5,532 nucleotides of DNA from the NCBI GenBank assembly GCA_028819945.1, contig JAPPKQ010000068.1, forward strand, positions 1 to 5,532, written 5' to 3'. Below, in pieces: positions 1-5,532 of this stretch (positions are counted from its first letter, which is position 1; each line of letters begins with the position of its first letter). The translations under genes and the position numbers were made by a program. Source of the DNA: a bacterium. Lineage in GTDB: Bacteria > Actinomycetota > Acidimicrobiia > Acidimicrobiales > CATQHL01. The notes under the pieces were generated by a model. It ran no database searches. It worked only from the letters and a program-made list of their open reading frames with translations, and was not told where the DNA came from.

Positions 1-1347
1 GGCCATCCCGTGGCGGACCGCGTCCTCGGGCATGACGAGCACGTCCAGATCGTCCGCCTCGGCGTCGTTGGAGTTCGTGTCGGTTGACAGGCGGAGGACC
101 GCCAGGGCGGGGTCGAGGATCTCTCGGGTGTTGCGGTAGTTGGTGCGCAGGACGGTCGCACGGCCGCGGGCCGTTGTGCTGGGCGGGTTCCAGGTCATCC
201 GGCGTCGGTACACCTTCTGCGCGCTGTCCAGGGCGATCACGAAGTGGTCCCGGTCGGGTTTCAGCATCGCCCAGGCGAGATCGAGGCCCGATTCCCCGAG
301 ATCCTGCGCCTCGTCCACGAGCACCATGTCGAATCGCTCTCCGGCGTCGAGCTGGTTCGCGAACTCGACTGCGTCAGAACGTCGCGCCTCGAAATCGGGG
401 TTGCGTTCGAAGGGCGCGGGTCGGCCGGCGTCTTTGAGCAACGCCGTCGCCAGACCGTCGACGGTCTGGGTGTGCACGTTGTCGACCCCCTTCATCTCGG
501 CGGTGAGTGCGACGGAGAGCGCTCTGTTGAAGCAGAGCAGCAGGATGCGCCAGTCCGGGAAGTGCTTGCCGAAGTGTTTCGCTCGGTGGGTGAGGATGAG
601 GGTCTTGCCGCTGCCGGCGACGCCGCGGATCAGCCGGTAGCCGCCGCCGAGGTGTCGGGCGAGCCGCTCTTGGCGCCGGTCGAGGGCGCGGACTTGGTCG
701 GTGTCGTCGGGCGGTCCGAACAGAGGCGCTTGCGCGGCCCGGGGGGATTCGGATGATCCTCCGATGGTGACCTCCGGCTTGACCGTCGCACGCGCCTTGG
801 TTTCCTCGGTCGGATCCAGTGAGCGTGACCGGGTTCCCAGGTTGCGGTGCAGCGCCCGCCCGAGGCCGTCTCGGGTGAAGTCCTCTTCGGTCAACATGGC
901 CAGAGGTTCCGTGATCTGGACATCCTCTCGGCGGTGTTGGGGAAACGCCAAGACGTGGTGTACCGGCAGGGATAGAACGGGACCGGTGGCGAGATCCCGG
1001 CGCAGGTTTGCGGCCCGCCGGGCGATCTCTGCGCGGATCGGCTCCGACTCGAGCGACCGGTTGCGCAGGAGGTGCCGCCGTGCCCGGGGCACGGTCGGGG
1101 CCTCGATGATTGCGATCCCGGCGGCGGGGTCCAGGACCACGAGGTACGGCTCGGACGAGTCGCTTTCTGCCGGGTGGCTCTCCGGATCGAACTGGCGGCG
1201 CAGCGCGGCGGCGGCGCCGTCGCCGGTCCGCTCCAGCCAGACCGTCACCTCGTCGGGAAGGAAGTCCCGCAGCGCCCGGGCTGCCTGCTGCAGGTGCTGG
1301 GGAACGTCGTTGCGGCTGGGGATGTTCTCGGGCTGGAGGAACGCCAT
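1..1347 (-). CDS. UvrD-like superfamily 1 DNA helicase with N-terminal NERD-like domain (3' end off window)
   Basis: An ATP-dependent DNA translocase/helicase of the UvrD/Rep superfamily, probably cytoplasmic and acting on DNA repair or foreign-DNA intermediates; the substrate is unknown. Only the first 449 codons are present, and the frame is open to the window's left edge. Residues about 1-180 look like a NERD-type domain: a beta pattern VVLDP (D73) then GIAIIEA (E82) matches the family's core, but the expected lysine after the glutamate is absent (EAP). A proline/serine/acid-rich linker follows (about 180-220). The motor then begins: a Q-motif-like stretch (LDRRQERLARHL), Walker A GVAGSGKT (242-249), motif Ia-like LCFNRALS (271-278), HTQTVDGL (292-299), Walker B VDEAQD (344-349), motif III-like ALDSAQKVY (372-380) and motif IV-like TNYRNTREIL (402-411). 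Motifs V and VI must lie off window. The ATG at 1347 is the first start codon in frame after the upstream stop and suits the domain layout, but no clear Shine-Dalgarno precedes it. The helicase call is firm; the NERD call is tentative. Confidence 0.93.
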   Translation of the reverse strand, partial: MAFLQPENIPSRNDVPQHLQQAARALRDFLPDEVTVWLERTGDGAAAALRRQFDPESHPAESDSSEPYLVVLDPAAGIAIIEAPTVPRARRHLLRNRSLESEPIRAEIARRAANLRRDLATGPVLSLPVHHVLAFPQHRREDVQITEPLAMLTEEDFTRDGLGRALHRNLGTRSRSLDPTEETKARATVKPEVTIGGSSESPRAAQAPLFGPPDDTDQVRALDRRQERLARHLGGGYRLIRGVAGSGKTLILTHRAKHFGKHFPDWRILLLCFNRALSVALTAEMKGVDNVHTQTVDGLATALLKDAGRPAPFERNPDFEARRSDAVEFANQLDAGERFDMVLVDEAQDLGESGLDLAWAMLKPDRDHFVIALDSAQKVYRRRMTWNPPSTTARGRATVLRTNYRNTREILDPALAVLRLSTDTNSNDAEADDLDVLVMPEDAVRHGMA

Positions 1348-1512: not shown

Positions 1513-4500
1513 TCAGAATCCTCCGAGGAAGGACTGTCCGGTCTCGGTGATCGCCACGTGCTCATAGCTGGTTCCCGAGTCGGTTCGGGATTCGCCCCTG
1601 GTCGCCAGCCGGTCCTCGATCAGTTCGTCGATCAGGGCGTCGACCTCGGTCTCGCGCAGGATTGCGAGGCGTCCGAAGGTGGGGTGCGTGGCGAGTTCGT
1701 TCGGCAGGGCGTGTGGCGCGGGGTTGACGCCGGCGAGTGCGCGGACGATTCGCAGGCGGGAGTAGGGGTGCTGGCGCCCCGAGGTGTCTGCAATGAGCCG
1801 CAGGGCAATGGTTCGCTTCGGTAGCGCCGCCAGCAGGCTTTCCCGGTCGAGGGTGCTGGCGGCCCAGGGCCGCGGAAGGGGTGCGCAGCCGTCGCAGGCG
1901 CCGCAGCGCTCGGGATCCTCCCAGTCCAGGTGGTCATTGGCGCCGAAGTACTCCAGCAGAACTCGGCGCCGGCAACGCGGCGAGGGGGCGCCACCGGGTG
2001 TGCCCGCGTGGCCGAGCGCCGTGATTGCGGCGAACTGTTTGGCGCGGTCGGATTTCTCGGCCACCACCGCCTGCCGCTGCTCGGCCAGTTCCTCGATGGC
2101 GTCCCAATCCGGCTCGTGGCCGGCGCGCCGCTCGAGGGTCCAGGCGTGGCGCCAGGCCACGAACCCAAGGATGTCCCAGCTGTTCAACTCGAGCAGATCA
2201 GCGGCGATCTCCGCAGGCGGTCGCCCCAGGCGACGGCTCCAGTATCCGGCCTGGTAGTCGTCGTTGTCGTCGACTGATGCGAATTCGAGGATTCCCCGGG
2301 CTCGCGCCGCGAGTTCCGGGTCTGTGACCGCCAGTTCGTCGATTCGAGCCCCCGAGTCGGCCAGGACCGTCAGGCGCCCTCGCCACGGCGTGTCCAGGTG
2401 GCGGGTCACGCCGCCGCCGGCGGCCTGCAGGTAGTGCACGGCGAGTGCGATGTCGATGCGCTCCCGGTCGGTTTCGTCGTCTCCGTCCGCCAGTTGCTCG
2501 GGGTCGTAGGGATGTGTCCCGACGTCGAGTTGGTTCCAGAGGCGGCGCACCAACTCCGAGGTGGGCGCGGCGCCGCGGATGACCAGCCTGTGCATGGACC
2601 AGTCCTGTGGCGTCTTGAGCAACACTGCGGTGCCGACACTCGGCTCCTCACCGCCGACGGCGCCGCGCACGGCCCGGCCGGTCTCCTGGACGTACTCCTC
2701 GATCGTGGGAGGCATCTCGAGGTGCACCACGAGTTCGATGTCGGGTTTGTCGATCCCCATCCCGAACGCCTTGGTGGCGATCACGACATCCACCTCGCCG
2801 TGGCGAAAGGCGTCCTCGATGTGGCGGCGGGCGTTCTGCTCCATGGCACCGTGGTACGCCTGGACGTTGTGGTCGGCTGCTGACAGCAGACCCGCCAGCC
2901 GCGTGGTGTCCTTGCGCGTCGGGACATAGACGATCGCGGCCCGGCCCCTGAAAGACTCCGCTATCTGCACCACTCGCAGGTCCCGGTCGTGGCGGTTCTC
3001 GCAGTTCTCGACGAAGTAGCGGATCTCGGGCCGGTCGGGTGACAGCGATATCGGTTCGGCGCCGGTGAGGTCCAACCCGAGAAGTTCGTTTATCTCCTCG
3101 CGCACCTCGGGGATGGCCGTGGCGGTAACCGCGAGCACCGGTGGCCGCGGCTCGCCGATGCGTCCGAGGGCGGCGGGGATGGTCGTGTACTCGGGCCGGA
3201 ACGAGTGCCCCCACTGGGAGATGCAGTGCGCCTCGTCGACGGCGAACCGCTCCACCCCGATCCGGGCCAGGGTCCGGACGAACTCCTGGGACCAGAGCCG
3301 TTCGGGGCTCACGTAGAGAAGCTTGTAGTCGCCCCGCTTCGCGCCCCGCAGAACGTCGCGCCATTCGCCTTGGGGGATGCCGCTGTGGATCGCGGCCACC
3401 TGCTTGACGCCCCGTGCCTGCAGGTTCTCGACCTGGTCGTTCATGAGAGCGGTCAGCGGCGAGATCACCAGCGTGAGCCCCGGGCTGATCAGCGCCGGGA
3501 TCTGGAAGGTGATCGACTTGCCCGACCCCGTCGGCAGGACGGCGAGGGTGTCGCCGCCGGCGATGAAGCGCCGCATCACGTCGAGTTGTCCGGGCCGCCA
3601 GCGCTCGAATCCGAAGAGGCCCCTCACCTCGTCGAGGCGCTCGTTCACCGTTTCTGTGTCGGCCGTCTCGTCCTCGCTCAACTCCAGTGCGGCGAGGTCG
3701 CTCCAGGCGCCCGCACCCGGCACGGCGTCCAGACGGCGGCGCATGTCCTCGTCGTAGCGGACGCAGGGGAGGTGTCCCGCGATGTGTTCGTAGGCTTCGG
3801 CCGCCTGGCGGGCCCGCTCGGTCCGGGGCGGACCCGGCAGCATTCCGAGCATCACGTCGCGGTACGGCGTCGGGCGGCAGAGGCGGCTGTCGAGCACGGC
3901 GGTGACACCGCGGTCCGCTTCGGTTCGGATGAGCCGGCCGACGCCCTGGGCGAAGCGCAGCGCCGCCCGCGGCACCAGGTAGGTGGCGAACGGGTCATTG
4001 CCTCGTAGCTCCATGGCCTGCATCCGCGCGGCCGTCACCGGATCGGCGGGGGAGTCGAACGGGATCTTCTCGATGATCAGCAGGCTCAGCGCCTCGCCGG
4101 GGACATCCACGCCCTCCCAGAACGACCGCAGCGCCAGCAGGCTCGTGGCCCCCTCGTTGCGGATGCGCTCGACGAGGGCCGGCGCCGCGTCGTCGCCTTG
4201 GGCCAGCAGGGGGATGCCGCTGCGCTCCAGGATCGGCCGGGCGTGGTCCCGCACGAACTCCAGCCGGGCGCGGGCGGTCAGCAGCGCCAGGCCGCGCCCG
4301 GCGGTCAGGGTCAGCAGCCGGGGGATCTCCCGGGCGGCTGAGGCTCGGAACTCCTCCATGAGATGCGCCCGCGGGGCGGGCAGGTAGTCGGTCAGCAGCA
4401 GGAGATGGTTCTCAGCGATCCAGGCGAACGGGGTGTCCAGAGCGATCGGCGACTCCACGGCGCCGAGCCCCAGAGTGTGAATGATGTGGTCGAAGCTGCC

Positions 4501-5532
4501 GCCCACCCGCAGCGTGGCCGACGTCAAGACGGTGCTGTGGAGACAGTCCCAGATGGCGCCGAGTTCGGCTGTCACCGACAGCGGCACCCGGCGCAGGGCC
4601 CAGGTCCAGCGGCCGGAGTCGTGCTCGATGCCGGCGACGGAGACCCACCGCTCTGGATCCTCGGCCCAGACGACCATGTGGATGGTGTCGGCGAGGTCGC
4701 GGGCGCGGCGGCCCAGCCTGGCGATCTCCTCCTCCAGCCGGTGACGCCGGTAGGGGGCGATCAGTTCGCCCGGCAGGTTGACCTCGTTCAGGACGTCGGC
4801 GACGCCGCGCAGGGCGTCCCTCAGGTCGGTGCCGCGCCGGCGCACCTCGGCGTAGTCCGGGTGACGGGTGTCGATCCACGGCCTGATGTGGTACGCCGCG
4901 GGGTAGGCGTCGGCCGCGCCGGCGGCGGTGCGGGTGCGCACATACCGCACGAGTGCCGCACCGAAACTCCCAGCGGCGTTGCGGGCGTCGCTCGCCGCGG
5001 CCCTCAACGCCGAGAGGCGCTCGTCGCCCAGACCCCATCCGGCTGCAGCGGCGAGCCGATGGACGGTGCTGCGGCGGTTGCCGCTGTCCCAAAGCTCCCC
5101 GACGAGGGTCTCCACGTCGCCCAACCCGGCCTCGGCGGTCAGCGCGTCGGTGGCGGCGTCCTCCAGGTTGTGCGCCTCGTCAACCACCAGTCGCTTGGCG
5201 CGGTCCAGCCACTCCTCCCAGGTCACGATCAAGGCGTGGTTGAGAATGCCCAGATCAGCGTCACGTAGGCCTTCCCGGGCTCGGCGCAGGAAGTCGCGCT
5301 CCTCCAGCGGCCCTTGTGGCGGCCCGCCGACGCCCTCGGCGCTGAGGCGCAACCGCAAGCTCGCCAGCGCGGCCCGGTTGGTGCCCGAGTGATCACCCGT
5401 CGTGGCTGTGACCCGAGACACGATCGCGCCGGTCCGCAGATCATCCCAGTCGCCGGTCGGAGTGGTCGCAACCCAGCCGCAGAGGATCGCCAGCATCAAG
5501 CCCGCTGCCGTGTCCCCGCGTGGAGCCTGTTC
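1513..5532 (-). CDS. DinG-type / RecQ-type tandem helicase fusion protein (5' end off window)
   Basis: One uninterrupted frame encodes two superfamily 2 helicases. It is open to the right edge, so the true start and the DinG Walker A motif lie outside. A TTG at 5499 could be called as a start, but it would leave a motor with no ATP-binding loop. Counting residues from 5499, the DinG half has VVDEAHNLED (105-114), TSATL (326-330), SFWEGVDVPG (459-468), IIEKIPF (475-481) and QGVGRLIR (518-525). After an acidic linker the RecQ half has motif 0 FGFERWRPGQ (629-638), Walker A LPTGSGKS (655-662), VISPLTALMNDQV (678-690), DEAHCISQWGHSFRPEY (755-771), AVTATA, ATKAFGMGIDKPD (908-920) and motif VI QETGRAVR (938-945). 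Zinc ligands are Cys 1176, 1199, 1202 and 1205. No HRDC domain is evident. Family knowledge gives DinG 5'->3' and RecQ 3'->5' movement along single-stranded DNA. A role in fork, R-loop or end processing is inferred. The protein is far longer than a free-standing RecQ (about 600 residues) or DinG (about 700-900). Confidence 0.95.
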   Translation of the reverse strand, partial: EQAPRGDTAAGLMLAILCGWVATTPTGDWDDLRTGAIVSRVTATTGDHSGTNRAALASLRLRLSAEGVGGPPQGPLEERDFLRRAREGLRDADLGILNHALIVTWEEWLDRAKRLVVDEAHNLEDAATDALTAEAGLGDVETLVGELWDSGNRRSTVHRLAAAAGWGLGDERLSALRAAASDARNAAGSFGAALVRYVRTRTAAGAADAYPAAYHIRPWIDTRHPDYAEVRRRGTDLRDALRGVADVLNEVNLPGELIAPYRRHRLEEEIARLGRRARDLADTIHMVVWAEDPERWVSVAGIEHDSGRWTWALRRVPLSVTAELGAIWDCLHSTVLTSATLRVGGSFDHIIHTLGLGAVESPIALDTPFAWIAENHLLLLTDYLPAPRAHLMEEFRASAAREIPRLLTLTAGRGLALLTARARLEFVRDHARPILERSGIPLLAQGDDAAPALVERIRNEGATSLLALRSFWEGVDVPGEALSLLIIEKIPFDSPADPVTAARMQAMELRGNDPFATYLVPRAALRFAQGVGRLIRTEADRGVTAVLDSRLCRPTPYRDVMLGMLPGPPRTERARQAAEAYEHIAGHLPCVRYDEDMRRRLDAVPGAGAWSDLAALELSEDETADTETVNERLDEVRGLFGFERWRPGQLDVMRRFIAGGDTLAVLPTGSGKSITFQIPALISPGLTLVISPLTALMNDQVENLQARGVKQVAAIHSGIPQGEWRDVLRGAKRGDYKLLYVSPERLWSQEFVRTLARIGVERFAVDEAHCISQWGHSFRPEYTTIPAALGRIGEPRPPVLAVTATAIPEVREEINELLGLDLTGAEPISLSPDRPEIRYFVENCENRHDRDLRVVQIAESFRGRAAIVYVPTRKDTTRLAGLLSAADHNVQAYHGAMEQNARRHIEDAFRHGEVDVVIATKAFGMGIDKPDIELVVHLEMPPTIEEYVQETGRAVRGAVGGEEPSVGTAVLLKTPQDWSMHRLVIRGAAPTSELVRRLWNQLDVGTHPYDPEQLADGDDETDRERIDIALAVHYLQAAGGGVTRHLDTPWRGRLTVLADSGARIDELAVTDPELAARARGILEFASVDDNDDYQAGYWSRRLGRPPAEIAADLLELNSWDILGFVAWRHAWTLERRAGHEPDWDAIEELAEQRQAVVAEKSDRAKQFAAITALGHAGTPGGAPSPRCRRRVLLEYFGANDHLDWEDPERCGACDGCAPLPRPWAASTLDRESLLAALPKRTIALRLIADTSGRQHPYSRLRIVRALAGVNPAPHALPNELATHPTFGRLAILRETEVDALIDELIEDRLATRGESRTDSGTSYEHVAITETGQSFLGGF
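1516..1857 (-). other. C-terminal winged-helix-like region after the zinc site
   Basis: Residues about 1215-1328 follow the zinc site where RecQ proteins carry the RQC winged helix. The pattern of helices (SRLRIVRALAG, ETEVDALIDELIEDRLATR) and a final strand pair (YEHVAITETGQSFLGGF) fits a small winged-helix DNA-binding domain. The region ends the protein; no HRDC domain follows. Confidence 0.6.
1885..1974 (-). other. RecQ four-cysteine zinc-binding site
   Basis: The stretch begins CRRRVLLEYFG and ends CGACDGC, giving the spacing C-x22-C-x2-C-x2-C. RecQ proteins have the same arrangement, with a CRR..LL.YFG start and a CxxCxxC end, that holds one structural zinc. All four ligands (Cys 1176, 1199, 1202, 1205 counted from 5499) are present. 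Confidence 0.9.
1990..2634 (-). other. Extra segment between RecQ motor and zinc site, winged-helix-like in part
   Basis: Residues about 956-1170 separate motif VI from the first zinc cysteine. In Escherichia coli RecQ the comparable gap is about 50 residues, so most of this segment is additional. It contains a helix-turn pattern (IDIALAVHYLQAAGGGV), then a strand-like stretch, then GRPPAEIAADLLELNSWDIL followed by a hydrophobic strand (GFVAW), which together read like a winged-helix fold. The end of the segment is a long charged helix (EELAEQRQAVVAEKSDRAKQF) that corresponds to the ordinary RecQ helix leading into the zinc site. The fold assignment is by pattern only. Confidence 0.5.
2635..3642 (-). 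other. RecQ-type helicase motor module of the fusion
   Basis: Residues about 620-955 hold a complete set of RecQ motor motifs: motif 0, Walker A (GSGKS at 3514-3528), the DEAH box (3226-3237) with the RecQ-specific aromatic-rich loop, motif III ATATA-like, motif IV (AIVYVPTRKDT), motif V (FGMGIDKPD) and motif VI (2665-2688). Two positions that are strongly conserved in RecQ differ. The aromatic-rich loop reads GHSFRPEY instead of GHDFRPEY, and motif VI reads GRAVR instead of GRAGR. Both ATP-binding signatures are intact, so the motor is expected to be active. Confidence 0.92.
3835..5532 (-). other. DinG/XPD-like helicase module of the fusion (N-terminal motif I missing from window)
   Basis: This is the part of the fusion that matches DinG/XPD-family helicases. 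The segment before the DEAH box (positions 5170-5181) ends in DADLGILNHAL, the family's typical lead-in. TSATL, SFWEGVDVPG and QGVGRLIR (3925-3948) follow in the expected order and spacing, and the DSRL after the last motif also fits DinG. In XPD and Escherichia coli DinG four cysteines before the DEAH box hold a 4Fe-4S cluster; here only one cysteine (residue 7) lies in that stretch within view, and the usual cysteine just before the RRAR element is not there. The module is therefore probably of the cluster-free kind known from some Gram-positive DinG proteins. Motifs I and Ia, and any N-terminal exonuclease domain, would be beyond 5532. Confidence 0.88.

Follow-up and report, generated by a model that had tools for sequence, protein, structure and literature searches.

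What might a protein do that carries motors of two helicase families, DinG and RecQ, in a single chain? The question is raised by a 5.5-kb stretch of DNA from a member of the Acidimicrobiia, here called the window, which is the entire contig C62 (5,532 nucleotides) of an assembly of 485 contigs (2.6 Mb, 76% complete). A preliminary description of this DNA proposed that two helicases of opposite polarity are joined in one polypeptide and likened the arrangement to RecBCD. We show here that DinG and RecQ are fused in one protein, though the window holds only part of the full protein. Based on its domains and active-site residues, a missing cysteine set, a conserved gene pair, patchy presence, and two jointly gapped copies, we tentatively favor, with a confidence just short of even, the reading that the fusion and a UvrD-type partner act together as an accessory, unwinding-coupled 3'-to-5' exonuclease, likely at forks, R-loops, or strand-exchange intermediates. 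The activity, the complex formed by the two products, and the substrate are predicted from sequence.

The fusion is encoded by a single unbroken minus-strand frame running from position 5532 to 1513 (1,339 amino acids, 5' end open). Pfam assigned a Helicase_C_2 domain of the DinG/XPD type to residues 405-562 and DEAD and Helicase_C domains to residues 647-956 of this frame. The NCBIfam model recQ_fam matched residues 639-982 over its cut-off, and the YoaA/DinG models matched residues 71-580, under their cut-offs in the truncated window protein. The RecQ equivalog TIGR01389 scored 357.9 bits, not reaching its cut-off of 640.2, and PF16124 scored 24.3 bits on the RecQ zinc-binding region, just below its cut-off of 25. 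Thus, the occurrence of DinG and RecQ motif sets in one uninterrupted frame and the family assignments of both halves, as given in the preliminary description, are borne out by domain matches, and its spacing of about 100 residues between QGVGRLIR and FGFERWRPGQ agrees with starts that lie 111 residues apart. The elements of the fusion gene in the window are as follows.

1513..5532, minus strand: 5'-truncated exonuclease-DinG-RecQ gene; window residue 1 is residue 375 of the relative P0001 (1,712 amino acids)
5170..5181, minus strand: DEAH box (motif II) of the DinG half, residues 118-121; D492-H495 of P0001, invariant in a 25-row alignment
3847..4320, minus strand: Helicase_C_2, second motor domain of DinG, residues 405-562 (PF13307, E 4e-32)
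3925-3948, minus strand: QGVGRLIR motif, within Helicase_C_2 of the DinG half
3616..3846, minus strand: inter-motor linker of 77 residues between the Pfam domain and FGFERW, also present in relatives
3586-3615, minus strand: FGFERWRPGQ, just ahead of RecQ motor domain 1
3100..3594, minus strand: RecQ motor domain 1 (DEAD, residues 647-811; PF00270, E 2.5e-25; TIGR00614, 306 bits, cut-off 219.8)
2665..2958, minus strand: RecQ motor domain 2 (Helicase_C, residues 859-956; PF00271, E 4.9e-25)
1885..1977, minus strand: RecQ zinc-binding region with four cysteines (C1560, C1583, C1586, and C1589 of P0001; PF16124)

An assembly error joining a DinG gene to a RecQ gene is conceivable for one short contig of so fragmented an assembly. 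However, the same fusion was found on contigs of 2-3.6 Mb in four other genomes (G155, G163, G668, and G717) and in plasmid records of Thermus and Deinococcus, and single open frames recur from genome to genome. The preliminary description had suggested a survey of domain architectures to see how widespread the fusion is and had named halves that are always separate genes as an outcome that would speak against it; PF13307 and PF00271 occurred together in one protein in 120 of 120 relatives listed of 539, many of them on megabase contigs. An artefact is thereby refuted, with practically no probability left to it. A second search, with an alignment including Thermus and Deinococcus members, retrieved 649 proteins at E ≤1e-100, 120 of them listed.

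The contig end cuts the fusion gene, so that about 374 of 1,712 residues are absent from the window and the Walker A motif of the DinG half falls outside it. In the closest relative, P0001 (98% identical to the window protein), the order from the N terminus is a DnaQ-type exonuclease (PF00929, residues 10-180), the DinG core, and RecQ. The third enzyme at the N terminus of the full protein is thus a DEDDh exonuclease, and PF00929 was matched in 111 of the 120 listed relatives. The start of the host's own gene was found on another contig, C20:1-474, which is 97% identical to P0001 residues 1-158; fusion residues of about 159-374 are covered by neither contig. From relatives, we infer that C20 and C62 adjoin. 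Beyond the RecQ zinc site, the predicted model places more helices and strands, and among five full-length relatives the RQC domain gave a weak match only (E 0.02, in P0011).

Conservation was assessed in 140 full-length rows (139 distinct), comprising those 121 of 128 search hits that have at least 1,600 amino acids and 19 proteins from the loci. The residues assigned to the three predicted active sites are almost invariant in these relatives. Those of the DEDDh exonuclease are retained in 136-139 rows (His in 139), the Walker A lysines and motif VI arginines of both motors in all 140, and the DEAH box with D, E, and H in 140 and A in 139. In the RecQ half, the four zinc-binding cysteines are present in 139-140 rows and W, F, and R of the aromatic-rich loop in every row; Q1023 of motif 0 is invariant in 13 rows, Thermus and Deinococcus among them.

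In the interval from Walker A to DEAH, the DinG half has a single common cysteine column (119 of 140 rows); the next columns reach 35 and 12, and four cysteines are found in 4 rows, with fewer in the remaining 136. A four-cysteine iron-sulfur cluster site is therefore absent. With this set missing, a pair of helicases of opposite polarity is a conjecture: the residues of both motors are intact, as that proposal would have it, but 5'-3' unwinding by the DinG half is doubtful. The DinG protein of Bacillus subtilis also lacks these cysteines; as described in PMC12525004, it is a 3'-5' exonuclease that degrades forked 3' tails and hybrid RNA, and in the presence of ATP it shortens a fork's 3' tail but halts ahead of the junction instead of unwinding it. 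By analogy, an ATP-driven DNA-handling core serving the exonuclease appears to be a better reading of the DinG half than a proven 5'-3' helicase.

A bipolar, RecBCD-like motor, with DinG (5'-3') and RecQ (3'-5') tracking both strands of a duplex in the same direction, strikes us as improbable. The intact lysines and arginines of both motors are consistent with it, and the family polarities, 3'-5' for RecQ and 5'-3' for Escherichia coli DinG (the latter stated in PMC12525004), would allow the geometry. The absent cysteine set argues against it, however, as does the report, in the same paper, that related cluster-less DinG enzymes degrade forks instead of opening them or need special conditions for unwinding. 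Moreover, the fusion has a DEDDh exonuclease where RecBCD has a PD-(D/E)XK nuclease, and PD-(D/E)XK proteins (PF12705) separate from the fusion were found in every one of the 24 genomes tested, of which 15 are carriers and 9 are not; in 21 of the 24, two such matches lie in frames of at least 1,000 amino acids. PDDEXK_1 had no match in the fusion or its partner. Since carrier genomes hold these proteins too, the fusion is no stand-in for a PD-(D/E)XK enzyme, which excludes it as a substitute for RecBCD, not as a RecBCD-like mechanism. The earlier comparison with RecBCD overlooked the N-terminal 3'-5'-type exonuclease.

Downstream of the fusion, on the same strand, the window contains the partner gene.

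1..1347, minus strand: UvrD-type superfamily 1 helicase (Pfam), first 449 amino acids, cut by the contig end

The full partner is 596 amino acids long in G151, a genome of the same genus, and a UvrD-type helicase gene follows the fusion on the same strand in 18 of 18 loci of closer relatives. An active NERD nuclease in the partner was considered and rejected: Pfam found no NERD match in three partners, and the position at which E-x-K is expected reads E-A-P by eye, with Pro in 44 of 47. As E-A-P replaces E-x-K, an inactive NERD relic is possible.

Presence of the fusion is patchy. Among 395 genomes of the class scanned at E ≤1e-160, 19 matched, 13 with the RecQ-bearing fusion (counting G692 with a contig-end piece only and the window's own copy in pieces) and 6 with an unfused form. 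Of the eight genomes of the host's genus, four have the fusion, G150 has a remnant, and three, two of which are less than 90% complete, gave no match at E ≤1e-60. Two decayed copies are found in this genus, each with one gap spanning both genes. Compared with G154, about 6.8 kb is gone in G150, from fusion codon 207 to approximately partner codon 557; the left flanks are 97.5% identical over 1.8 kb, whereas on the right side identity is 95% over the first 77 nucleotides, 72-85% over the following 6 kb, and 99% thereafter. G151 has an intact pair and, about 50 kb away, a decayed second copy (L121:7011-8756, contig G151:C9), in which pieces of fusion residues 4-576 are immediately followed by partner residues 167-284.

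RecQ and UvrD-type enzymes are 3'-to-5' translocases on single-stranded DNA, and exonucleases of the DnaQ type degrade from 3' ends. In the reading we favor, the duplex would be opened by RecQ, likely with the UvrD-type partner, and the DinG core would bind single-stranded DNA and use ATP to hold, feed, or release it; judging from B. subtilis DinG, this core would not be the main unwinding motor. Behind RecQ, the exonuclease might then shorten the strand with the 3' end, or it might trim hybrid RNA. Because removal of the 3' strand leaves no 3' tail, on which recombination depends, such a module would, like human WRN, be suited to clearing or undoing structures rather than to end resection for RecA, and it would be an accessory to the usual set of repair genes. 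If this proposal is right, two polypeptides would supply three motors of helicase type along with one 3'-5' exonuclease, a small system for studying how motors from different families act on a shared DNA end. Bacteria would then also have an exonuclease-helicase of the WRN kind, open to experiments in simple hosts, and there might be an explanation for a protein recorded as a curiosity, in 2005 for Thermus and in 2009 for Deinococcus deserti.

Several points weigh against this reading. A search of the open-licence literature turned up neither biochemistry nor genetics for any protein of this kind. Damage induction is unsupported, since LexA-like sites upstream of the fusion occur at the level of shuffled sequence: among 18 upstream stretches (17 loci and the host's own contig, with 269 nucleotides only for L114 and with estimated start sites), none had a perfect match to the actinobacterial LexA box, GAACNNNNGTTC, and 4 had one-mismatch sites, as did 10-13 of 100 single-base shuffles. 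The partner is missing from distant loci, with no gene of its family beside the fusion in Thermus (L199, L201) or in G404 (L257), and with a different, PcrA-type UvrD gene upstream of the fusion in Deinococcus (L200). The DinG half may still unwind: PMC12525004 leaves open some helicase potential of B. subtilis DinG and cites the D10A variant of Staphylococcus aureus DinG as unwinding forks at saturation. Finally, the fusion occurs on plasmids in Thermus, Meiothermus, and Deinococcus; this, together with its patchy presence and its decayed copies, would agree with a role in defence or plasmid biology no less than with one in repair.

A close rival, to which we assign a real but somewhat lesser likelihood, is a two-gene system against invading phage or plasmid DNA, in which the helicases would open the DNA and the exonuclease would destroy it from 3' ends. 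The patchy distribution (13 of 395 class genomes; 4 of 8 plus a remnant in the host's genus), the decay across both genes, and the plasmid copies are all consistent with it. So is the gene tree in part: the copy of G155, a genome of the same family, falls outside the window's genus (approximately unbiased test, P = 7e-48), although it forms a long branch. G761, a genome with 8% contamination, has two copies, and within a Thermus species presence varies between strains. Otherwise, the tree largely follows taxonomy, a branch setting apart the members of Deinococcota and another, with weak support, those of family f31; G155 aside, it also fits inheritance with losses.

Some neighbors are defence-like, namely a PDC-M55C match beside one G761 copy (L256), a Fic gene beside L248, and a divergent NERD-UvrD gene (PADLOC RTasNERD-Hel match) adjoining the fusion pair of G163 on the plus strand (L113:12810-14534). 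Against a defence role, in scans that covered part of the flanking genes, Pfam matched 13 of 18 neighbors (from class loci or L017), mostly as housekeeping genes (UvrA, thiolase, transporters, and dehydrogenases), with no match for the other 5, and PADLOC hit 5 of 11, three of these with generic UvrA- or helicase-type models. PADLOC-DB 2023 has no model of the exonuclease-DinG-RecQ architecture, although a newer or unlisted system is possible. In searches with the window protein, which lacks the exonuclease (best 25 of 35 hits), and with the partner (10 hits), each hit listed spans no more than a single helicase part, examples being DpdF at residues 627-1004 and typeIV_DinG at 73-578. None of 102 phage records with a match reached 80% query cover, and the 77 matches from a scan of viral contigs with RecQ motifs as patterns were confined to residues from 954 onward, in the linker and RecQ; on these grounds, cargo carried by phages was rejected. 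An island anchored at a tRNA gene was also considered: such a gene is present in 4 of 19 loci (L018, L248, L117, and L118), on C20 the fusion start is preceded at a distance of a few hundred bases by tRNA-Leu, and a tRNA-Leu with the same anticodon is located upstream of the G150 remnant.

A bolder reading would regard the pair as a mobile two-gene, four-enzyme DNA-destruction system of Acidimicrobiia, outside PADLOC-DB 2023 and with cousins on Thermus and Deinococcus plasmids. RecQ and the UvrD-type helicase would unwind invading or conflicting DNA, the ATP-gated, cluster-less DinG core would feed it, and the DEDDh enzyme would degrade it from the 3' end. We consider this less likely than not. 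If a defence role were true, it would add a helicase-nuclease system absent from PADLOC-DB 2023.

Further loci touch on the fusion and its surroundings. In G719 (L255:6730-11890) and in one of the two G761 copies (L256:7190-12209), the fusion is split into two overlapping frames, by sequencing error or decay. An unfused exonuclease-DinG protein of about 1,000 amino acids (825 in the broken L116) occurs in a conserved chromosomal neighborhood in genus g78 (L242-L247, L116) and, among unfused proteins in the class scan, scores highest as a relative of the N-terminal half. The window's own genome encodes a second mega-fusion on the minus strand of contig C56 (L119:201-5519; 1,772 amino acids), with a RecQ-type motor at residues 360-681 and a UvrD-type motor at 1159-1624. 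Its start may be exonuclease-like (DEDD) as judged by eye, Pfam having found no exonuclease match there, and matches at E ≤1e-100 were obtained in 10 of 22 genomes tested. Directly upstream of the distant fusion copy in G404, a minus-strand gene (L257:12142-18483), overlapping it by 4 nucleotides, encodes a 2,113-amino-acid protein without a Pfam match at E ≤0.001 or a PADLOC match at E ≤1e-8. The Thermus fusion is followed by three conserved genes (L199:12945-15843 and L201:13018-15960) for proteins of 279-323, 157-180, and 502-514 amino acids, which differ from the UvrD-type partner; those tested had no confident Pfam match, the first giving weak matches of the coiled-coil type.

The preliminary description left open whether this architecture had been studied. 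The exonuclease-DinG-RecQ triple fusion was in print in 2005, when it was noted for Thermus thermophilus HB27, and again in 2009 for D. deserti; no work on its activity was found among the matches listed from open-licence full texts. As given in the 2009 report (PMC2669436), Deide_06510 is a large multidomain helicase of 1,683 amino acids, listed as DnaQ/DinG/RecQ and also present in HB27; Deide_06520, a UvrD/REP helicase, is listed directly after it, and both are without counterparts in two other Deinococci. New, as far as the literature was searched, are the Acidimicrobiia family, the fixed UvrD-type partner, the absence of the cysteines, and a patchy distribution in which the two genes decay together.

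Among known proteins, those of T. thermophilus HB27 (plasmid pTT27, WP_011174436.1, L199), D. actinosclerus (L200), and Deide_06510 share the order exonuclease-DinG-RecQ and a length of about 1,650-1,760 amino acids. Identity to the window protein is only 28-30% for L199, L200, and L201. All three retain the exonuclease, Walker A, DEAH, and zinc residues. The gene context differs: three unrelated small genes follow the Thermus fusion in place of the UvrD-type partner, and the PcrA-type UvrD gene of D. actinosclerus is larger and lies upstream. The DinG proteins of B. subtilis and S. aureus are alike in combining an N-terminal DEDD exonuclease with a DinG core, that of B. subtilis without cluster cysteines (PMC12525004). 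Five solved-structure matches of the N-terminal half include 8zef, "3'-5' exonuclease DinG," whose 897 amino acids equal the length given there for S. aureus DinG. Both DinG proteins differ from the fusion in having no RecQ part.

Human WRN resembles the fusion in pairing an exonuclease with RecQ. However, WRN is not known to have a DinG core, and its exonuclease is of the DEDDy type, whereas the fusion has the additional DinG core and a DEDDh exonuclease (His in 139 of 140 rows); in five full-length fusion relatives, Pfam gave no HRDC match up to E 1. RecBCD, AddAB, and AdnAB bring several motors and a nuclease together in one complex, as the fusion and its partner may do. Their nuclease is of the PD-(D/E)XK type, in contrast to the DEDDh exonuclease of the fusion, whose carriers hold PD-(D/E)XK proteins as well.
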